Shown one piece after another: positions 17,397-32,127 of a stretch of DNA of 34,087 nt; position 1 is the stretch's first letter; each line of letters opens with the position of its first letter. Source of the DNA: Spirochaetota bacterium (GTDB lineage: Bacteria > Spirochaetota > Spirochaetia > Treponematales > UBA12059). Made by a program: the position numbers and the translations under genes. Location of the stretch: NCBI GenBank assembly GCA_022703215.1, contig JAKLEE010000004.1, positions 1 through 34,087 on the forward strand, written 5' to 3'. A model generated the notes under the pieces. The model ran no database searches, was not told where the DNA came from, and saw only the letters and a program-made list of their open reading frames with translations.

Positions 17397-20945
<3,549 letters not shown>

Positions 20946-21272: not shown

Positions 21273-22808
21273 ATGAAGACAGTCGCGGTTCTCGACCTCG
21301 TGCCCGCCACGGGCCTCGCCTTCGAGCCTTTCGCCGGAGGCCTTTCAGCGTTCGAGCGCTCGCTCGCGGCGTTGCGTTCCCTGCCCGGTCTCGAGCGGGT
21401 CGTCGTGCTTGCGGCCGGACTCGAACCGCCGCCGGGCGATTACGAGCTCGTCCGCCGCGCTTCCTGGGACGTTCCGGCCCTCATCGAGGCGCTCGCTGCC
21501 GTCGCCGGAGATCCGAAGGCGGCCGACGCCCCGGGCCTCCTCGTGCACGCGTTCGGCGACCAGCCCTTCCTCGACGGGGCCTTCGCCGCGTCCATGGCGG
21601 CGTCGTTCGAACGCTGGAAGGCGGAATTCCTCTTCGCCGACGGCTGGCCGGAGGGCTTCGCGGCGGAATTCGTCAAGCCGCGCATCCTCATGGCCCTCTC
21701 AGCCATCGCCGCCCGCGAGAAGCTGCCGTTTTCGCGCGACGCGCTCTTCCTGACCGTGCAGAAGGACATCAACTCGTTCGACGTCGAGACCGAGATCTCG
21801 CGCGTCGACCTCCGGCCCTGGCGCTTCCGGGCCGTCTGCGACACCCGCCGCGATTTCGAGGCCTCGGCCCGGCTCGCCGCGGCGGCCGGCGGAAGGGTTA
21901 CGGCCGAGTCGGTGCAGGATCTGCTCCCGCGCCACGAGGAAGTCCTCCGGAACCGTCCGGCCTTTGTCCACGTGCAGGTTTCGGGGGGCTGCCCTCAGGC
22001 CTGCGCGTACTGCCCCTACCCGGGTTTCGGCGGCGATGTCACGGCCCGGCGCGACTTCATGGAAGCCGGCCGCTTCGACACCTTGATGGATAAGGTCGCC
22101 TCATTCTCCGGCGACGCGGTGGTAGACCTCTCGCTCTGGGGCGAACCTGCCCTGCACCCCGCCTTCGGCGCCCTCGCGGACTCCGTGCTGTCGCGGAAGG
22201 GCCTCTCGCTCATCGTGGAAACCGCGGGCGTCGGCTGGCAGGCCGGCGTGGTCGAGGGAATCGCGGAACGTTGGGCCGCTTCCGGCCGCCTCGACTGGAT
22301 AGTCTCCCTCGACGAGACCGGGCGGGGCGAGTACGAGGCCCTGCGCGGACCGGGCTTCGAGGAGGCGGTCGCCTTCGCGGAACGGCTCGGCATCCTCTTC
22401 CCCGGCCACGCGCACGTCCAGGCGGTGCGGATGCTCTCGAACGAGCGCCGCCTCGAGGTTTTCTGGCGGGGCTGGAAGGAGAAGGGACTCGACGTCATCG
22501 TGCAGAAATACGACGATTTCGCGGGCCGGCTGCCGGATCTGACGGTCTCCGACCTGTCGCCGCTCGGGCGGCTGCCCTGCCGTCACTTGGCGCGCGACCT
22601 CGTCATAGCCCTCGACGGCTCCGTCCTCATGTGCCGCGAGGTGCTCGGTCCCGGGGTCTACCCGGACCAGGCGCCGCTCGGCAACGTGTTCGAGGACTCT
22701 CTAGAATCGATCTGGGCGAGCGGCGAAAGCGCCTGGCTCGCCCACGTCCAACGGAAACTTCCCGCCATCTGCGAGCGCTGCGATGAATACCACACCTGGA
22801 ACGCCTGA
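21273..22808 (+). CDS. Radical SAM/SPASM protein, spiro-SPASM type
   Basis: 511 residues. Residues 1-215 resemble a nucleotidyltransferase or GT-A-like domain (VHAFGDQPFLDGAF at 91-104). The radical SAM core follows with the cluster motif CPQACAYC (Cys240, Cys244, Cys247) and the SAM-binding region SLWGEPALHP (287-296). A C-terminal SPASM domain has Cys436, Cys454, Cys500 and Cys503 as likely ligands of an auxiliary [4Fe-4S] cluster. This domain order matches the spiro-SPASM family that I recall as restricted to spirochaetes; its substrate is not known to me. The ATG has AGGAG 5 bases upstream. First gene of the operon leading to flaA; the next gene overlaps it by 26 bases. Confidence 0.87.
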   Translation: MKTVAVLDLVPATGLAFEPFAGGLSAFERSLAALRSLPGLERVVVLAAGLEPPPGDYELVRRASWDVPALIEALAAVAGDPKAADAPGLLVHAFGDQPFLDGAFAASMAASFERWKAEFLFADGWPEGFAAEFVKPRILMALSAIAAREKLPFSRDALFLTVQKDINSFDVETEISRVDLRPWRFRAVCDTRRDFEASARLAAAAGGRVTAESVQDLLPRHEEVLRNRPAFVHVQVSGGCPQACAYCPYPGFGGDVTARRDFMEAGRFDTLMDKVASFSGDAVVDLSLWGEPALHPAFGALADSVLSRKGLSLIVETAGVGWQAGVVEGIAERWAASGRLDWIVSLDETGRGEYEALRGPGFEEAVAFAERLGILFPGHAHVQAVRMLSNERRLEVFWRGWKEKGLDVIVQKYDDFAGRLPDLTVSDLSPLGRLPCRHLARDLVIALDGSVLMCREVLGPGVYPDQAPLGNVFEDSLESIWASGESAWLAHVQRKLPAICERCDEYHTWNA

Positions 22809-23742
22809 GCCCCGGGAGACCGGCTATACGGTCCTGGGCGGCGGGGCGAGGCCCGCTTCATCCTCGCGCATTTCGGTGGTCGTGCTCAACCGTGGCGGCC
22901 GGCTCTACCGCGCGCGCCAGCTGCAGGACCTCGAGCGAGCGGGATTCGCGGAAGTGGTGTCGGTGGAGGAAACCGGCGAGGGTCTTCACGAGCTGGAAGC
23001 CCTCGCGTCCCGCTACCCCTCGACGCGCTTCGCCGTGGTTCCTCCGGGACTTAGTCCCGGCGAGCGCGCGGGCATCGGCTTCCGCGAGTCTCGCATGCCC
23101 TGGGTGCTGCTCCTCTGGAACGACCAGCGGCTTTCCGCGGGGGCGCTTTCCTCGCGTTTCGCCGAACGCCTCGAGGAGCGGTCCTGGCTCTGCGCGACGC
23201 CCTGGTTCAGGGGGCCGGACGGCGAGGTCCTGCCCTCCGCGAGCGCGCCCGCGCGGGAAGGCTCGGGACTCAGGGTGCTGAGCCTCGAACCGCGCGAGGA
23301 CGGCGAGAAAGTCCTGTTCCCGCTCGACTACACGGGTGTCTACTCCCGGGAACGCTTCCTCGCCTCCGGAGGCTTCGACGCCTCCTACAGCTCGCCCTGG
23401 TGGCAGCTCGTCGAATTCGGTTTCCGGTGCTGGCTCCGGGGCGAGACCCTCGGATCGGCCCAGGCTCTCCGCGTCGATTACGTGGAGGCGCCGCCGTCCT
23501 ACGACTCCAGCCCGGGCTGCGATTACCGGCGCTTCCACTTGCGCTGCCTCGCGCCCGCGTATCGCGGCGATTCGGCCCACCTTCCCTGGTCCCGCTTCCC
23601 GCGCTTCGCCCTGCGCGGCGGCGTCGGACCGGCGGAAGCGTTTTCCGAATTCAAGGCCGCCCGCGCCTGGGTCGCCTCCAACGCTTTCCGTTTCCGCACC
23701 GACGCCCGCGCCCTCGTCGACCTCTGGGAGCCTCTTTCGTGA
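22783..23742 (+). CDS. Glycosyltransferase family 2-like protein
   Basis: 319 residues, cytoplasmic. The start of a GT-A fold is visible as SSRISVVVLNRGG (27-39), then hydrophobic strands around PWVLLLWNDQRLS, where the DxD-like position reads WND rather than a clear DxD, and LDYTGVYSRERFLASGGFDASYSSPWWQLVEFGFRCWLRG, which is the acceptor-side block of family 2 enzymes (GGFDxx...E.. ..R). Assignment is therefore to GT2-like with moderate confidence; the weak metal motif could mean altered donor use. The ATG lies within the end of the SPASM gene and its stop overlaps the GTG of the cytidylyltransferase gene, so translation is coupled on both sides. Confidence 0.7.
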   Translation: MNTTPGTPEPRETGYTVLGGGARPASSSRISVVVLNRGGRLYRARQLQDLERAGFAEVVSVEETGEGLHELEALASRYPSTRFAVVPPGLSPGERAGIGFRESRMPWVLLLWNDQRLSAGALSSRFAERLEERSWLCATPWFRGPDGEVLPSASAPAREGSGLRVLSLEPREDGEKVLFPLDYTGVYSRERFLASGGFDASYSSPWWQLVEFGFRCWLRGETLGSAQALRVDYVEAPPSYDSSPGCDYRRFHLRCLAPAYRGDSAHLPWSRFPRFALRGGVGPAEAFSEFKAARAWVASNAFRFRTDARALVDLWEPLS

Positions 23743-24443
23743 GGATAGGCATCGTGCTCCAGGCGCGCCTCGACTCGAGCCGCCTGCCTCGGAAGGCCCT
23801 GCTGCCTTTCGGCGGCATCCCGATGGTCGAAGCCTGCATGCGGCGCCTCTCGCGCTTTCCGGCGGCGGCGCGCGTCCTCGCCTGCGACGAGGCTTCCGCC
23901 GCCACCTTCGCGCCCCTCGCCGCACGCGCGGGCTTCGAGCTCGTCCCGGGACCGAAAGAGGACGTACTCGCCCGCTTCGCCCTCGCCATCCGGAGCTTCT
24001 CGCTCGATCGCGTGATACGGGCCACCGCCGACAACCCGTTCGTATCGCCGGAACTGGCATCCATCGTCTCCGACCGGGCCGTCGAAGCCGACGTGGATTA
24101 TGCGGGATTGACGGGCATGCCGCTCGGGCTTGGCGTGGAGGCCGTGCGCGCCTCCGCCCTGCTCGCGGCCGACGCCGAGGCCGTCGACCCGTTCGAGCGC
24201 GAACACGTCTGTCCCTTCCTGTACCGTCGGCCGGAGCGCTTCCGCGTGCTGCGGGAAGAGGCTCCGGCGGAATACCGCTATGCTTCCGGCCGCGTCACCG
24301 TCGACACCGCAGGCGACTACGAACGAGCCCTCGAACTGGCGCGGGAAGCCGGTTTCGACCCTTCCACGCGCCTCCTCGTGGCGACCCTCAAGGCCCTGGA
24401 CTCGGGCGACTGGTCGCTCGTGCAACCTTGGACGGCGGAGTGA
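23739..24443 (+). CDS. SpsF-like sugar cytidylyltransferase
   Basis: 234 residues from GTG, overlapping the previous stop (GTGA). The opening IGIVLQARLDSSRLPRKALLPFGGIPMVE is the nucleotide-binding signature shared by CMP-Kdo synthetase, PseF/NeuA-like enzymes and Bacillus SpsF (QARxxSxRLPxKxL); RATADNPFVSPELA supplies the metal-binding Asp, and YRYASGRVTVDTAGDYE is the typical SpsF C-terminal block (usually RxTVDxxxDxE). It should activate a sugar acid with CTP. With the adjacent PseG/SpsG-like gene it forms the SpsF-SpsG pair known from spore-coat and flagellar polysaccharide clusters. The exact sugar is unknown. Confidence 0.8.
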   Translation: MRIGIVLQARLDSSRLPRKALLPFGGIPMVEACMRRLSRFPAAARVLACDEASAATFAPLAARAGFELVPGPKEDVLARFALAIRSFSLDRVIRATADNPFVSPELASIVSDRAVEADVDYAGLTGMPLGLGVEAVRASALLAADAEAVDPFEREHVCPFLYRRPERFRVLREEAPAEYRYASGRVTVDTAGDYERALELAREAGFDPSTRLLVATLKALDSGDWSLVQPWTAE

Positions 24444-24447
24444 CCCG

Positions 24448-26238
24448 ATGAAACGTGTGCTGCTCGTCCCCTCGGTCAGGCGGGGCAACGGTTCGGGCCA
24501 CCTGGTCCGCTGCCTCTCGCTGGCCCGCGAACTCGGTCCGGGCGCCCGGGTTTTCGTATCCCGCGAGGGCGGAGAGGGCTCCTGGAGCCCCGCTGAAATC
24601 ACGCTCGCCTTTCCCGGCGCCGCCGACGACATCGTGATCGACCGGCTGGAGCCCCGTGAGCGCTTCGACCTCGTGTTGCTCGACCGGCGGGAAACCTCGC
24701 TCGAGGAGCTCGGAACCTGGAGCGGACGCGGCCCCGTCGTCGCCCTCGACGAAGGCGGCTCCGCGCGGCGGGCGGCCTCCTACCTGATCGACGCGCTGCC
24801 GCGACCGCGCTCGGGCCGCGCGGAGCCCGGTCCCAACCTCTCGTCTCGCGGCTACCTCGACCTGCCCGTCCACCGGCGCGAGACGGCGACGATCGCGCGG
24901 AAGGCCCTGCTCGCGTTCGGCGGCGAGGACCCCGCCGGTCTCGGCCCGAAGCTCGCCCGCTTTCTGGTTGAAAAAGGTTTCTTCGAGCCGTCGCGCCTGA
25001 CTCTCGTTTCGGGCGCCCTGAGCCGTCCCGGTGCCTCGCGCGACTCGGTTCCGCAGGGCATCGCCGTGCTCGGCCCGGTCCAGAACCTCAAGGAGCACCT
25101 GTCCTCCTGGGATCTCGTGTTCACTTCCTTCGGGTTGACCGCGTTCGAAGCGTCCTGGGCGGGATGTCTCGTGGCCGTCCTGGACCCGGGTCCCTACCAC
25201 GCCGCGCTTTCGCGCGAAGCAGGCTTTCCCTCCATCGGCACCCGCGAACCCGACGGGAAGGCACTCGCCGCCCTGCTCGCCGACCTTCCCTCCTTCGCAG
25301 CGGCTTCCGCGCGTCCCGCCCCCCCCGCGCGCGAAAGCCTCGCCGCCGCCGTCGGATCGCTCTCCTCGAAGGCCTCAGGCGTGTGTCCGGCCTGCGGATC
25401 GGGCGACCGTGCGGACCTCGAGCGCTACCCCGACCGGAGCTATTTCCGCTGCCGCAAGTGCAACCTTCTATATATGGAAGGATTCGCCGACAAACCAGGG
25501 CGCTACGCCAAGAGCTACTTCTTCGAGGAATACCGCGCGCAGTACGGGCGCACCTACCTCGAGGACTGGCCGAAGCTGACGGAGCTCGCGTCCTCCCGCC
25601 TCGACCTCGTGGACCGCCTGGTCCCGCGGCGGGAAGGGAAGGGCCGAAAGCTCCTCGACGTCGGCTGCGCCTACGGCGCCTTCATCGCGGAGGCCTCGCG
25701 CCGCGGCTGGGAAGCCTACGGACTCGACCTCGCCGACGACGCGGTCGCCTACGTCCGCGACTCGCTGAGGTTGCCGGCCATGGCGGCCGACTTCCAGGAT
25801 CCCCGCCTCGACGACCTCGTGCCGGACGGCCTCGACTGCCTCTCCCTGTGGTACGTCGTCGAGCATTTCGCGGACCTCGGCGCGACGCTCGACCGGGCGG
25901 CCCGCCTGCTCGCGCCCGGGGGCGTCCTGGCCCTGTCCACGCCATCGGGTTCCGGCATCAGCGCCCGGAAGGACCATCGTGCCTTCCTGGCCGCAAGCCC
26001 CTACGACCACCTGAGCGTGTGGGAACCGGAGCGGGCTGCCCGGTTACTCGCCCGATTCGGCTTCCGCGTCGAGCTGATCCGATCCACCGGCCACCATCCG
26101 GAGCGCTTCCCCGGAGCGCGGGAAGGCGATCCGTCCTGGCTCCGTTCGCTGCGCGGCGCCGCGAGCCGGGCTTTCCGCCTCGGCGACACCTTCGAGATCT
26201 ACGCCCGGCGCCTCGCGCCGAAAGGAAGGGCATCCTGA
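24448..26238 (+). CDS. PseG/SpsG-like domain fused to zinc ribbon and SAM methyltransferase
   Basis: 596 residues in three parts. Residues 1-300 are a GT-B-type PseG/SpsG-like domain: GNGSGHLVRC (13-22) contains the family's G-x-GHxxRC motif with the catalytic histidine, and FTSFGLTAFEASWAGC (225-240) is the nucleotide-sugar side. Residues 313-338 hold a zinc ribbon, CPAC and CRKC. Residues about 400-596 form a class I methyltransferase with motif I LLDVGCAYGAF (402-412) and acidic motif II around LDLAD. PseG removes UDP from the pseudaminate precursor, so a combined hydrolase-methyltransferase acting on a nonulosonate-type sugar is a fair inference. The ATG is 4 bases after the cytidylyltransferase stop. 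Confidence 0.82.
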   Translation: MKRVLLVPSVRRGNGSGHLVRCLSLARELGPGARVFVSREGGEGSWSPAEITLAFPGAADDIVIDRLEPRERFDLVLLDRRETSLEELGTWSGRGPVVALDEGGSARRAASYLIDALPRPRSGRAEPGPNLSSRGYLDLPVHRRETATIARKALLAFGGEDPAGLGPKLARFLVEKGFFEPSRLTLVSGALSRPGASRDSVPQGIAVLGPVQNLKEHLSSWDLVFTSFGLTAFEASWAGCLVAVLDPGPYHAALSREAGFPSIGTREPDGKALAALLADLPSFAAASARPAPPARESLAAAVGSLSSKASGVCPACGSGDRADLERYPDRSYFRCRKCNLLYMEGFADKPGRYAKSYFFEEYRAQYGRTYLEDWPKLTELASSRLDLVDRLVPRREGKGRKLLDVGCAYGAFIAEASRRGWEAYGLDLADDAVAYVRDSLRLPAMAADFQDPRLDDLVPDGLDCLSLWYVVEHFADLGATLDRAARLLAPGGVLALSTPSGSGISARKDHRAFLAASPYDHLSVWEPERAARLLARFGFRVELIRSTGHHPERFPGAREGDPSWLRSLRGAASRAFRLGDTFEIYARRLAPKGRAS

Positions 26239-27824
26239 TGCGCATCATGATACTCGGTGCCGGCGTGATGCAGCTGCCGGCCATCCGCATCGCCCGCGAC
26301 CTGGGCTGGCGCGTGGCCGCTGCCGACGCCGACGCCGCGGCTCCCGGCGCGACCCTCGTGGACGAGTTCCTGCACGTCGACCTCAAGGACCGCGCCGCCC
26401 TCGAGGCGGCCGCCATGAAACTTCGAGCCTCCGGCGGCCTCGACGGCGTCTTCACCGCGGGCACCGACTTCTCGGCCAACGTCGCCTGGATCGCCGCCCG
26501 CCTCGGCCTGCCCGGCATCCCGTACGAAGTGGCGCTTGACGCGAGCCACAAGGGCCGCATGCGCGCACGCTTCGAAGCGGCCGGCGTGCCGTCGCCACGC
26601 TTCGTCACCGTGGGTGTGGACGAGGATGCGACCCTCGCCGCGGAGCGCGTCGGCTTTCCCCTGGTCGTCAAGCCGGTGGACAACATGGGCGCGCGCGGGT
26701 GCAGGCTGGTCGCGGCCACCCGTGAATTCGGCCCGGCCATCGCCGAGGCCCTGCGTTCGTCGCGCTCGGGCAGGGCCATCGTGGAGGAGTACGTCGAGGG
26801 TCCCGAATTCTCGATCGACGCCATCGTCCACGAGGGCCGCGTCGAGCTTTGCGGGATCGCCGACCGCCACATAGCCTTCGCTCCCTTCTTCGTCGAGCTC
26901 GGGCATACGATGCCGAGCGCGTACCCGCCGGAAGCGCTCGCTGAAGTGGTCCGCGTCTTCGAGCTCGGGGTGCGGGCGCTCGGCCTCGGGCCCGGCGCGG
27001 CCAAGGGCGACATCAAGCTCGGAAAGCGCGGCGCGGTGGTCGGCGAGATCGCGGCCCGTCTTTCCGGCGGCTACATGTCCGGCTGGACCTATCCCTACGC
27101 CTCGGGCGTCGAGCCGACCCTGGCGGCCCTCCGCGTCGCCGTGGGACTATCGCCCGGCGGGCTCGGGGCCCGACGCGACTGGGTATCGGCGGAACGCGCC
27201 TTCATTTCGATTCCGGGTAAGGTCTCGCGACTTCTCGGCGAGCGCGAGGCGCTGCTCGAACCCTTCGTCAAGGACGTATTCCTCCGCCTCGGTCCGGGTT
27301 CCAGGGCGGTGTTCCCTTCGAACAATGTGGAAAAGGGCGGCAACGTCATTTCCCAGGCGCCGGATCGCGCTTCGGCCAGCGCCGCAGCCGAACGCGCCGC
27401 CCGCGCGCTGCTTCCGGTCCTCGAGCCCGAGGACGCCGCCACCGAGGATTTCCTCGCCGGAGGGGGCGGAATCATCCTGCCGGACGGCCGGGCGTGGCCA
27501 CCTCCCGCCTTCGGCGAGGTTCCCGAGGCGTTCCGTAACGCGCTCGCGGTCCTGCCGGAGGACATTCCGGGTTCGGCACCCGGACGCGGCGAACCCAGCC
27601 CCTATCTTCCGTTGGCGCTTTCCCCGCAAACCCTCGCATCGCGCGACTGGCTGGGAAGGACGCTCGCGGAATCGCTTGAGCTCGTGGAGCGGCTTTCCGG
27701 CGCCCGGCCGGCCCGCCCCGGCGAGTCGGCGCTCGCCGGCCGATTCTGGAGGGCGCTCGAGAGGGGCGGCTGGCAGGCCGCCCTCTACGTCGTGGACACG
27801 GAACGCGCGCTCAGGGCAGGATGA
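26238..27824 (+). CDS. ATP-grasp ligase of unknown substrate
   Basis: 528 residues. An N-terminal Rossmann-like domain opens ILGAGVMQLPAIRIARDLGW. The ATP-grasp fold follows with FPLVVKPVDNMGARGC (nucleotide lysine and glycine loop), IVEEYVEGPEFSIDA, and GDIKLG...VVGEIAARLSGGYMS carrying the metal ligands. The last ~200 residues show no recognised domain. Family members join an amine or other nucleophile to a carboxylate through an acyl phosphate. The ATG overlaps the stop of the methyltransferase gene (TGATG), so it belongs to the operon; ligation of an amino acid or another acid onto the sugar is an inference only. No carbamoyl-phosphate or biotin domain is visible. Confidence 0.8.
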   Translation: MRIMILGAGVMQLPAIRIARDLGWRVAAADADAAAPGATLVDEFLHVDLKDRAALEAAAMKLRASGGLDGVFTAGTDFSANVAWIAARLGLPGIPYEVALDASHKGRMRARFEAAGVPSPRFVTVGVDEDATLAAERVGFPLVVKPVDNMGARGCRLVAATREFGPAIAEALRSSRSGRAIVEEYVEGPEFSIDAIVHEGRVELCGIADRHIAFAPFFVELGHTMPSAYPPEALAEVVRVFELGVRALGLGPGAAKGDIKLGKRGAVVGEIAARLSGGYMSGWTYPYASGVEPTLAALRVAVGLSPGGLGARRDWVSAERAFISIPGKVSRLLGEREALLEPFVKDVFLRLGPGSRAVFPSNNVEKGGNVISQAPDRASASAAAERAARALLPVLEPEDAATEDFLAGGGGIILPDGRAWPPPAFGEVPEAFRNALAVLPEDIPGSAPGRGEPSPYLPLALSPQTLASRDWLGRTLAESLELVERLSGARPARPGESALAGRFWRALERGGWQAALYVVDTERALRAG

Positions 27825-27828
27825 GGCG

Positions 27829-28953
27829 ATGAGTTCCCCCGGAAAAAGAGGCGCCGGCCTTCCGCCGGGACGTCGCGGAAAACCCGCGGGCGCGTTCGCG
27901 CTGTGCCTGGCGATCGCTGCGGCCTTCGCGGGGACGCTTCCTCTCGCCGCGCAGTCGCCTTCAACCCCTCCCACCGGCATGCCCGCGGCGGTTTCCGCGG
28001 CCGACTTCGCAGCCTCGGTCGGAGCCGTCCTGTCCATCGATCCGTTGCTTGGAACCGTAACCATCAGCGCCGCGGGCGAACGGGTCGCCTTCAAAACCGG
28101 CTCCCCGTGGCACCTGCTCGGCGAGCGGCCCGCGCGCCTCGCCCCGAGCCGGATGGGGCCCGCGGGACCCGTCCTCGACGGCGGCACCGCGGCCTACCTG
28201 AGCTCCTGGTTCGAGGAGCGCCGCGTCGAGCGGCTGTCCCGCTTCCGCGTCGCGGCCATCCTGATCGACCCCGGCCACGGCGGAAAGGATCCCGGCGCTG
28301 TCGGGGAATACGGTACGGGCAAGGACAGGAAGAAGGTGCTCGAAAAGGACCTCGCGCTCGCCACGGCGCTCTCCGTGCGCGATTCCCTCATCGCGCGCTT
28401 TCCCGACCGGCGGATCCTGCTCTCGCGTGAGGGCGACACCTATCCGAGCCTGGAGGAGCGGGTGGAAATGGCCAACACCGTCGCGCTCGGTCCCAACGAG
28501 GCCATCATCTACGTCTCGATACACGCCAACGCGTCCTTCAACCGCAACGCCTCCGGCTTCGAGGTCTGGTACCTGAATCCGGATTACCGGCGGACCCTCG
28601 TGGATCCGGGCACCCCGGGCGTGGACGAGGAGATCGCTCCCATCATCAACGTGATGATGGAGGAGGAGTACACCACCGAGAGCGTCCTCCTCGCGCGATC
28701 CATCGTCGACCGGCTCGACGCTTCAATAGGGTCCGTCTCCCGGAACCGGGGCATCAGGGCCGAGGAGTGGTTTGTCGTCCGCAACGCCCGCATGCCGAGC
28801 GTGCTCGTCGAAATGGGCTTCGTGACGAACGAGGCGGAAGCCCGCCTGCTCGCCGATCCGGCTCACTTGCGAAGCATCTCTAACGCCGTCTATAATGGCA
28901 TCGTCGATTTCATCGGCTACTTCGAAAGCCGCAAGGGAACAGCAACGCCATGA
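27829..28953 (+). CDS. N-acetylmuramoyl-L-alanine amidase (Amidase_3)
   Basis: 374 residues, exported: a basic N-terminus and signal peptide ending near LPLAAQ (about 41). Residues 55-105 may be a small beta domain of the copper amine oxidase-like N-terminal type. The catalytic domain has the full zinc set: DPGHGGKDPG (His150), Glu172 in VLEKD, SIHANAS (His232) and the catalytic VLVEMGF (Glu328). It cleaves the amide between N-acetylmuramic acid and L-alanine in the periplasm. The start at 27829 lies 4 bases after the ATP-grasp stop, and an ATG at 27821 is out of frame. The GerMN gene overlaps its stop (ATGA). Periplasmic remodelling near flaA fits insertion of the periplasmic flagellum. Confidence 0.9.
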   Translation: MSSPGKRGAGLPPGRRGKPAGAFALCLAIAAAFAGTLPLAAQSPSTPPTGMPAAVSAADFAASVGAVLSIDPLLGTVTISAAGERVAFKTGSPWHLLGERPARLAPSRMGPAGPVLDGGTAAYLSSWFEERRVERLSRFRVAAILIDPGHGGKDPGAVGEYGTGKDRKKVLEKDLALATALSVRDSLIARFPDRRILLSREGDTYPSLEERVEMANTVALGPNEAIIYVSIHANASFNRNASGFEVWYLNPDYRRTLVDPGTPGVDEEIAPIINVMMEEEYTTESVLLARSIVDRLDASIGSVSRNRGIRAEEWFVVRNARMPSVLVEMGFVTNEAEARLLADPAHLRSISNAVYNGIVDFIGYFESRKGTATP

Positions 28954-29453
28954 AGGACTTCCTCGACCGCATCCTGGCTTCCGCGCCGGCAGTCGTCCTC
29001 GGTCGCGCCCGCGTGCACCGGACCATCCTGCTCGCGCTCATCGTCGCGCTCGCGCTCGGCTCCTGGGCAGCCGGGGGCGCGCGTCGACCCGTCGTCCTGC
29101 TCTTCCCCCGCGCCACGGACGGCCGCATGGTCGGGGAGCTTCGCGCGCTGCCCTCCCGCGAGGCCGAGGCCGAAGCCGCCGAAACCCTCGCGGAGCTCCT
29201 GCTCGGCCCCTCGGACCCTGACCTGGCGCCGCTCTTCGCTCCGGGCACCAGGGTCGGCGCCGTGCTGCTCCGGGATGGCGTCCTCAGGGCCGACCTGACC
29301 GAGGGAGCCCTCGGCGAGGGCGGGGCGCCGCTCCGGACGGCCCTCGACGCGGCGATGCGGGTCCTGTCCCTCGCGTCCCCCGGCCTTGCGGACAGCTTCA
29401 TCACCATCGGAGGCAGGGTGCCCTTCGGCGGCGAGGACACGCAAAAAAAATGA
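28950..29453 (+). CDS. GerMN-domain membrane-anchored protein
   Basis: 167 residues. A single hydrophobic segment (TILLALIVALALGSWAAG, about 25-42) anchors or exports it. The remainder fits the GerMN (germination/sporulation) fold: RRPVVLLFPRATDGRMV, then a leader to ETLAELLLGPSDPDLAPLFAPGTRVGAVLLRDGVLRADLTEG. GerMN domains occur in sporulation and in peptidoglycan-associated proteins and are thought to bind cell wall or partner proteins. It overlaps the amidase stop by four bases. The gene ends with a run of eight A that encodes Lys-Lys and merges with the AT-rich flaA promoter, so it may be the last gene of the operon. Confidence 0.82.
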   Translation: MKDFLDRILASAPAVVLGRARVHRTILLALIVALALGSWAAGGARRPVVLLFPRATDGRMVGELRALPSREAEAEAAETLAELLLGPSDPDLAPLFAPGTRVGAVLLRDGVLRADLTEGALGEGGAPLRTALDAAMRVLSLASPGLADSFITIGGRVPFGGEDTQKK

Positions 29454-29459
29454 AAAGAT

Positions 29460-29505
29460 TTGACAAGGATATTCGCCCGAATATAATTGGAGCCGAATTC
29501 GGCTC
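29460..29505 (+). promoter_or_regulatory. Consensus sigma-70 promoter of flaA with overlapping palindrome
   Basis: TTGACA (29460-29465), 16-base spacer, TATAAT (29482-29487). Just beyond, GAGCCGAATTCGGCTC (29490-29505) is a perfect 16-bp palindrome spanning the expected start of transcription. AAAGGAG for flaA lies at 29522-29528. Confidence 0.88.
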
Positions 29506-29536
29506 ATCGACCGCCTTACAGAAAGGAGTTCAGAGT

Positions 29537-30574
29537 ATGACAAGGAAGGTCTTCATAGCGGCAACGCTCGTGTTGCTCCTCGGGACGCTTTCGGTTTTCG
29601 CGGACGAGGCGGTCCTGATGGACTTCTCGCTCCTCAAGGCCGACACGAACGAGGATCCCCTCAACGCCGGCCAGTTCCTCGACAACGGCGCGACCGTGAT
29701 GGATTTCTCCACCACCGCCGGCGCCAGCTACACCGAGGACCAGAAGAAGCAGATGGCCACCAGCCTCGCCATCGGCAACTGGGACATCACCCTCGCATCC
29801 TCGTCCCGGACCAACTTCAACCAGGCCCTGTCCTACACCCGCGAAGCCCCCGTCATCGGCGGGGCCTACACGGGCAAGACGGTCATGGGCATCCGGGTCC
29901 ACTTCCCCACCGAAACCTACAACAGCTGGGCCATGGTGACCCCGCCCTTCTCGATTCCCGCCTTCGAGCGCAAGGCAGGCGGCGGGACCGACCCGGTCAA
30001 TGACCGCCTGACCCGCTTCGAGGGAACCTTCAACGCGGACACCAAGATCACCACCGCCATGGGCATCGTGAAGAACGTGGGCGTCATCAAGTCGCTCGCC
30101 ATCACGGTCCGCGGCATGAACTTCCCCCACGGGATCTCACTCATCCTCGAGGACCAGGAAGGCAAGCAGACCACGATGTTCATGGGCTACCTGAACTTCG
30201 ACGGCTGGAAGACCCTGACCTGGAACAATCCGGCCTACATCACCGACGTCCGGAACCGGGAGCTCCGCCTCTTCCCGCTCTATCCGAAGTCATCCCCCTT
30301 CGTGAAGCTCGCCGGCATCCTCATCACCCGCGACGCGGCCCACGAGGGCGGCGACTTCGTGACCTACGTCAAGGATATCAAGATCCTTTACGACAAGGCC
30401 GTCCTCGACCCGGTGCGCGACATCGACGACGAGGCCGTCTGGGGCATCAACGACAAGCGCGAAGCCGACCGCAAGCTCATCGAGAGCCGCCGCTTCGGCG
30501 AGTCGCAGGTCCTCAGGTACCTCGAGAGGCTGAAGCAGGAACCGAAGTCCGAGTTCACCTCGGACACCGAGTAA
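29537..30574 (+). CDS. flaA: FlaA, periplasmic flagellar filament outer-layer (sheath) protein
   Basis: 345 residues, typical of spirochaete FlaA. A signal peptide of about 20 residues ends ...SVFA|DEA. The mature protein is beta-rich, with the family blocks VMGIRVHFPTETYNSWAMV, VKNVGVIKSLAITVRGMNFPHG and LFPLYPKSSPF, and a charged helical C-terminus. It coats the flagellin (FlaB) core of the periplasmic flagellum. AAAGGAG at 29522-29528 and the ATG at 29537 define the start; the earlier frame upstream is leader. It has its own consensus promoter and a strong terminator, so it can be expressed independently of the upstream operon. No flagellin or basal-body gene is in the window. Confidence 0.95.
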   Translation: MTRKVFIAATLVLLLGTLSVFADEAVLMDFSLLKADTNEDPLNAGQFLDNGATVMDFSTTAGASYTEDQKKQMATSLAIGNWDITLASSSRTNFNQALSYTREAPVIGGAYTGKTVMGIRVHFPTETYNSWAMVTPPFSIPAFERKAGGGTDPVNDRLTRFEGTFNADTKITTAMGIVKNVGVIKSLAITVRGMNFPHGISLILEDQEGKQTTMFMGYLNFDGWKTLTWNNPAYITDVRNRELRLFPLYPKSSPFVKLAGILITRDAAHEGGDFVTYVKDIKILYDKAVLDPVRDIDDEAVWGINDKREADRKLIESRRFGESQVLRYLERLKQEPKSEFTSDTE

Positions 30575-32018: not shown

Positions 32019-32090
32019 GTCTCCTTCGTCTATCGGTTAGGACATCGGATTTTCATTCCGACAAGAGGGGTTCGACTCCCCTAGGAGATG
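32019..32090 (+). tRNA. tRNA-Glu (anticodon UUC)
   Basis: The acceptor arms GTCTCCT and AGGAGAT pair (first pair G-U). The anticodon stem TCGGA/TCCGA carries loop TTTTCAT, giving anticodon TTC. The T arm is AGGGG-TTCGACT-CCCCT. The 3' CCA is not encoded. It is flanked by its own promoter and terminator. Confidence 0.95.
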
Positions 32091-32099
32091 CCTACCTTT

Positions 32100-32127
32100 C
32101 GCGGACCTTCGGGTCCGCGTTTTTTTT
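32100..32127 (+). terminator. Rho-independent terminator of tRNA-Glu
   Basis: CGCGGACC, loop TTCG, GGTCCGCG, then eight T. Confidence 0.95.

Follow-up and report, generated by a model that had tools for sequence, protein, structure and literature searches.

In Treponema denticola, filament assembly and motility require a 450.2 Da glycan borne by the FlaB flagellins (PMC9481697, citing Kurniyati et al. 2017). In Leptospira, FlaB1 has glycan-like densities at the interface of core and sheath, where the glycan is thought to mediate contacts (PMC13144727). We found no gene set for the spirochaete flagellin glycan in the literature searched. Here, we describe a candidate set. The genes lie within a 34,087-nucleotide stretch of DNA (contig JAKLEE010000004.1 of assembly GCA_022703215.1, from a Spirochaetota bacterium), hereafter called the window. 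Eight genes, ending with flaA, encode a radical SAM/SPASM protein (spiroSPASM), a GT-A-fold glycosyltransferase, an SpsF-like protein, a PseG-methyltransferase fusion (PseG-MT), an ATP-grasp ligase, an amidase, a GerMN-domain protein and FlaA. We propose, with a probability of roughly 0.7, that the cluster encodes the central part of a nonulosonic acid (NulO) pathway, and that the resulting sugar decorates FlaB, the flagellin that forms the core of the periplasmic flagellum. The direct evidence consists of gene content, gene order, co-occurrence, fusions, motifs and promoter sequence; from these we infer every reaction and the target. The candidate set extends to a reduced, T. pallidum-size genome, and would explain why the glycan is expected to be lacking in Borrelia.

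Conservation of the gene order

The family profile for spiroSPASM, TIGR04321, scored above cut-off in 291 of the 393 Spirochaetota genomes sampled. We collected 33 loci from the class, and 32 were long enough to assess. The full order (SPASM, GT-A, SpsF, PseG-MT, ATP-grasp, amidase, GerMN, flaA) was present in 29. In the other three, all Treponema-type genomes (G019, G056 and G276), the ATP-grasp gene is located elsewhere. Going by length, we take G056 (1,139,633 bases) to be T. pallidum Nichols and G165 (2,843,201 bases) to be T. denticola ATCC 35405. Clade labels, such as Borrelia-size or T. pallidum-size, refer throughout to identities inferred from the size of the genome and its gene order. 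A second set of 80 organism-named loci, partly overlapping the first, gave a similar picture; flaA was reached in 47 of 53 sufficiently long loci, and in 3 of these 47 PseG-MT and ATP-grasp genes were not detected. An arrangement kept this often is far from what chance would give. Hence, the gene order on which a preliminary description of the window had staked its proposal is conserved across the class. Outside the class, only the SPASM and SpsF genes, sometimes with PseG-MT, remain together. A literature search on spiro-SPASM returned no paper.

A candidate nonulosonic acid pathway

The cluster encodes candidate enzymes of NulO synthesis. The SpsF-like protein matches CTP_transf_3 (100 bits) and its CTP-binding motif is intact; residues R10, S13, R15 and K19 are invariant, as are R94, T96, D98, N99 and P100. 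For PseG-MT, the methyltransferase part matches Methyltransf_23 (78 bits), and also the profiles of the UbiG and TcaB9 methyltransferases. The other domain shows a low but genuine similarity to PseG (3hbm, E 2e-4), and the GxGH motif is nearly invariant. A single polypeptide combines SpsF, PseG and the methyltransferase in eight Treponema loci, and this fusion ties the three functions together.

The remaining steps are encoded elsewhere. The cluster contains no synthase gene. Even so, a full NeuB was found at another locus in 40 of 40 SPASM-positive genomes, including the window's own (C35:23333-24016), and in just 1 of 12 SPASM-negative genomes. The closest structure is SpsE (1vli, E 1e-48). 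The neuB gene adjoins ruvC/ruvB or serS, and we dropped its neighbours as functional clues. A second conserved operon was present in all 20 selected genomes, again including the window's own. It encodes a PseB-like dehydratase (PF02719), a PseC-like aminotransferase (DegT), for which PseC is the best NCBIfam match, and three molybdenum hydroxylase subunits. The operon (5278-11998 of L182, from G000:C190, and L183-L201) is usually preceded by a NusG paralog and is kept even in the T. pallidum-size genome; in G019 the dehydratase gene is ~8 kb from the rest. The molybdenum hydroxylase is an uncertain candidate for making the acyl acid discussed below, because orthologs occur in family f12 and in G372, which do not have the pathway, and are missing from G330 and G246.

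Maf proteins are NulO transferases that act on flagellins. They were found in 34 of 34 SPASM-positive genomes, compared with 0 of 4 SPASM-negative genomes. Borrelia-size genomes have neither NeuB nor Maf. The PseH profile gave no match above cut-off in 26 genomes, though the larger ones may encode a divergent GNAT enzyme; in the T. pallidum-size genome (G056) there was no match at all.

The ATP-grasp ligase may take the place of PseH. It matches ATP-grasp_4 (50 bits) and LAL_C2 (41 bits), both over the gathering cut-off, and resembles 4dim (E 9e-41) and the L-amino-acid ligase BL00235 (E 2e-39) in profile comparisons. Scores exceeded 270 bits in 32 of 32 SPASM-positive genomes; all 6 SPASM-negative genomes gave 45 bits or less. 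Outside the class, the ATP-grasp protein has a C-terminal FMN_dh (FMN-dependent alpha-hydroxy-acid dehydrogenase) domain (L207, L208, L209, L210 and L212). Most of these fused proteins also carry an extra cysteine cluster. The substrate of the ligase is probably a sugar amine. We propose that the enzyme joins a hydroxy acid, in amide linkage, to the amino group at position 4 of the UDP-sugar, which would become N7 of the NulO. A 2017 study reportedly identified the T. denticola glycan as a NulO of Pse configuration that is mono-N-acetylated and bears a 2-methoxy-4,5,6-trihydroxyhexanoyl group at N7. The ligase and the methyltransferase would explain two oddities of that structure, the N7 acyl group and the methoxy group.

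The following route can be envisaged. Two enzymes of the second operon would act first, the PseB-like one dehydrating UDP-GlcNAc and the PseC-like one aminating the product. The ATP-grasp ligase would then acylate the new 4-amine with a hydroxy acid, replacing the acetyl group from PseH. Next, the PseG domain would remove UDP, NeuB/SpsE would condense the sugar with phosphoenolpyruvate and SpsF would make the CMP sugar. Maf proteins would attach the NulO to FlaB at serine or threonine, and O-methylation of the acyl part would be the work of the fused methyltransferase. The spiroSPASM protein may be an accessory of the route and its radical activity, where kept, may add a lineage-specific change. 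Next to the pathway genes, those for the GT-A protein, amidase and GerMN protein would make up a module of the cell envelope; flaA, under its own promoter, would be a further unit alongside. We hold one detailed version of this scheme only tentatively, at slightly worse than even odds: an N-acylated NulO made with an ATP-grasp amide ligase instead of PseH, O-methylation of its hydroxy-acid acyl group by the methyltransferase fused to PseG, and a non-radical Fe-S role for the SPASM protein.

The distribution of the genes bears on the target. Lineages without flaA (f12, f9/g43, f4/g34 and g37) also lack SPASM, and so do Borrelia-size genomes, although flaA is kept there. In B. burgdorferi FlaB, the serines that are glycosylated in other FlaB proteins are substituted (PMC7431986), in line with absence of the pathway from Borrelia-size genomes. 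According to the title of Wyss 1998, as it appears in the reference list of PMC13144727, flagellins are glycosylated and sheath proteins are not. Hence, FlaB is a better target than FlaA, which is an unlikely one. The NulO could instead be made for another surface target, such as an outer-membrane glycolipid, S-layer or exopolysaccharide, with the flaA neighbourhood being historical. Other surface roles have been proposed for Leptospira NulOs (PMC3438082), the Bacillus sps genes decorate spores (PMC7439481), and flaA has a promoter of its own (see below). However, SPASM and flaA are absent together in separate lineages, Maf co-occurs with the pathway and a flagellin glycan is known in T. denticola. 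We therefore consider another surface target unlikely. The preliminary description had suggested a sugar-modification pathway of nonulosonate type, linked to the periplasmic flagellum, and this suggestion gains support from the gene order, NeuB, Maf and the shared absence of SPASM and flaA.

Several points weigh against a NulO pathway directed at FlaB. PseG, PseB, PseC and NeuB all fall under the NCBIfam equivalog cut-offs. G372, which has no flaA, retains a NeuB. G330 has SPASM and NeuB, and no PseB or PseC ortholog was found there. The genes have been lost in few lineages (about four independent ones), so that co-occurrence this close to perfect gives too strong an impression of independence. 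Finally, the literature searched yielded no biochemical or genetic test of the cluster genes.

The spiroSPASM protein, a proposed envelope module and flaA

The spiroSPASM protein of the window scores 466 bits against TIGR04321, for which the curated cut-off is 250. Its first ~220 residues adopt a cytidylyltransferase fold, matching 6oew both by sequence and by Foldseek. The radical SAM part matches BtrN (E 1.5e-17), and Foldseek returned SuiB, BtrN and DesII for the AlphaFold2 (AF2) model (pLDDT 93). The radical SAM enzyme could therefore be the central catalyst, acting on a sugar or peptide, with the other genes serving it; the relatives BtrN and DesII are of sugar type and the CX3CX2C motif of the window copy (CPQACAYC) is intact. 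However, of 140 members sampled, 29 no longer have this triad, among them those of T. denticola and T. pallidum, and the operon persists. On the tree, no fewer than 6 changes are needed to explain the losses, or no fewer than 4 when only strongly supported branches are counted. Conversely, the SPASM cysteines C436, C454, C500 and C503 are kept in all 66 aligned members. Repeated loss of the triad, alongside invariant SPASM cysteines, indicates that radical chemistry is not the conserved function of the family. Hence, we rejected a radical SAM reaction as the common step, contrary to the preliminary description of a radical SAM/SPASM sugar or peptide modifier, and find a central catalytic role for this enzyme scarcely credible. 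Members of this family can lose the radical SAM cluster site and still retain the site of the auxiliary Fe-S cluster.

The second gene had been described as GT2-like. The gene is present, and the glycosyltransferase assignment stands at the level of a predicted GT-A fold; the protein has no match in Pfam or NCBIfam. With the AF2 model (pLDDT 91), the top 50 Foldseek hits were polypeptide GalNAc-transferases (best E ~1e-11). This fold likeness alone is no proof of protein glycosylation. The GT-A gene directly precedes the amidase gene in genomes without NulO genes (L203 and L204, which are Borrelia-size, L202 and L205), some of which do not have flaA. GerMN is also beside the pair in Borrelia-size genomes and in one flaA-less genome. 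We rejected the GT-A protein as the NulO-flagellin transferase, since it is kept in Borrelia-size and flaA-less genomes without NulO genes and Maf co-occurs with the pathway. Its retention beside the amidase in these genomes places the GT-A gene in another module. Consequently, the eight genes do not form one pathway, as first described.

The same observations bear on a peptidoglycan or periplasmic role for the whole cluster. The GT-A protein, amidase and GerMN protein might shape the wall to hold the flagellum, with the sugar genes decorating peptidoglycan. The pairing of GT-A and amidase in Borrelia-size, flaA-less and f12 genomes is in keeping with this. However, GT-A and amidase persist in genomes that lack NeuB, SpsF and PseG, which sets the two groups of genes apart, and the CMP-NulO route is no known route to a wall precursor. 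We judge such a role for the whole cluster very improbable.

The features of the region are listed in Table 1. Gene limits and family matches bear out the eight genes, on one strand and in the place and order first described. From SPASM to GerMN the packing is tight, as claimed, with junctions that are 1-26-base overlaps or 4-base gaps. The short gap reported before flaA is 83 bases. The open reading frame listed for FlaA starts too early, at 29450, since the signal peptide MTRKVFIAATLVLLLGTLSVFAD starts only at 29537. On the left, the cluster is bordered by a gene for class II ribonucleotide reductase, which runs divergently on the minus strand (17397-20945). Downstream of flaA, the RelA/SpoT-TPR gene follows in four families of the order (f1-f4). 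A tRNA-Glu gene and then a strong intrinsic terminator (8-pair stem, eight T) are found at 32019-32119. The window is ~69% GC and the host genome is 2.97 Mb in 533 contigs. Two more flaA paralogs lie in tandem on another contig (G000:C423:1428-2670; L002 and L003).

Table 1. Features of the cluster and its downstream flank. Positions are those of the window.
Feature	Position	Strand	Basis
spiroSPASM protein: N-terminal cytidylyltransferase-like fold, radical SAM, SPASM domain	21273-22808	+	TIGR04321
GT-A-fold glycosyltransferase, outside named families	22783-23742	+	AF2 model, Foldseek
SpsF-like CMP-sugar (NulO) cytidylyltransferase, GTG start	23739-24443	+	CTP_transf_3
PseG-MT: PseG/SpsG-like UDP-sugar hydrolase domain, zinc ribbon, class I methyltransferase	24448-26238	+	Methyltransf_23, 3hbm
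ATP-grasp ligase, L-amino-acid-ligase type; proposed N-acyl ligase	26238-27824	+	ATP-grasp_4, LAL_C2
Exported N-acetylmuramoyl-L-alanine amidase	27829-28953	+	Amidase_3, 159 bits; signal-like N-terminus
Membrane-anchored GerMN-domain protein	28950-29453	+	Germane, 23.0 bits (exactly the cut-off); position kept in ~30 loci
Sigma-70 promoter of flaA, TTGACA-16-TATAAT	29460-29487	+	12/12 consensus match
FlaA, flagellar filament sheath protein	29537-30574	+	FlaA PF04620, 246 bits
RelA/SpoT-domain and TPR protein, next gene after flaA	30711-31955	+	RelA_SpoT, 60 bits; TPR

The flaA gene is preceded by a near-consensus promoter sequence. We scored the junctions of loci L034-L066, L214-L216, L220 and L222. 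In the GerMN-flaA gap, at least 10 of 12 positions matched in 29 of 30 genomes, ranging from low to high GC, and 12 of 12 matched in more than half. For the T. denticola-size and T. pallidum-size genomes the match is 11 of 12. Other cluster junctions score mostly 5-9 of 12, and none of 3001 shuffled regions reached 12 of 12. Given the conserved promoter, flaA is probably its own transcription unit. Read-through does occur in T. denticola, where flaA was co-amplified by RT-PCR with four upstream genes; the published promoter precedes TDE1716, several genes upstream, and the internal promoter seems unmapped there. Hence, a single operon leading into flaA, as first described, was rejected as the whole story.

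Comparison with known systems

The closest described case is the T. denticola flagellin glycan. Here the bacterial group, the flagellar target and the need for assembly and motility are the same, and the cluster genes are present in G165. The difference lies in the SPASM protein; that of G165 has lost the radical SAM triad, whereas the window copy keeps it. The window copy shows no difference from the TIGR04321 family, and other members are often without the triad.

The CMP-pseudaminic acid pathway of Campylobacter and Helicobacter uses PseB, PseC, PseH, PseG, PseI, PseF and Maf. Counterparts of the dehydratase, aminotransferase, hydrolase, synthase, cytidylyltransferase and Maf were found here. 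Conversely, there is no PseH above cut-off, and an ATP-grasp ligase, a fused methyltransferase and SPASM are added. The spirochaete genes are also split over several loci, with the SpsF-PseG-MT fusion in Treponema. Similarly, the sps legionaminic acid pathway of B. subtilis (PMC7439481) has SpsC, SpsE, SpsF and SpsG counterparts here. No counterpart of the SpsD acetyltransferase was identified, and the B. subtilis target is the spore crust.

The ligase has its own relatives. L-amino acid ligases, such as BL00235, share the ATP-grasp_4 and LAL_C2 architecture. Unlike these, the window ligase has ~110 extra C-terminal residues, and homologues outside the class have the FMN_dh domain.

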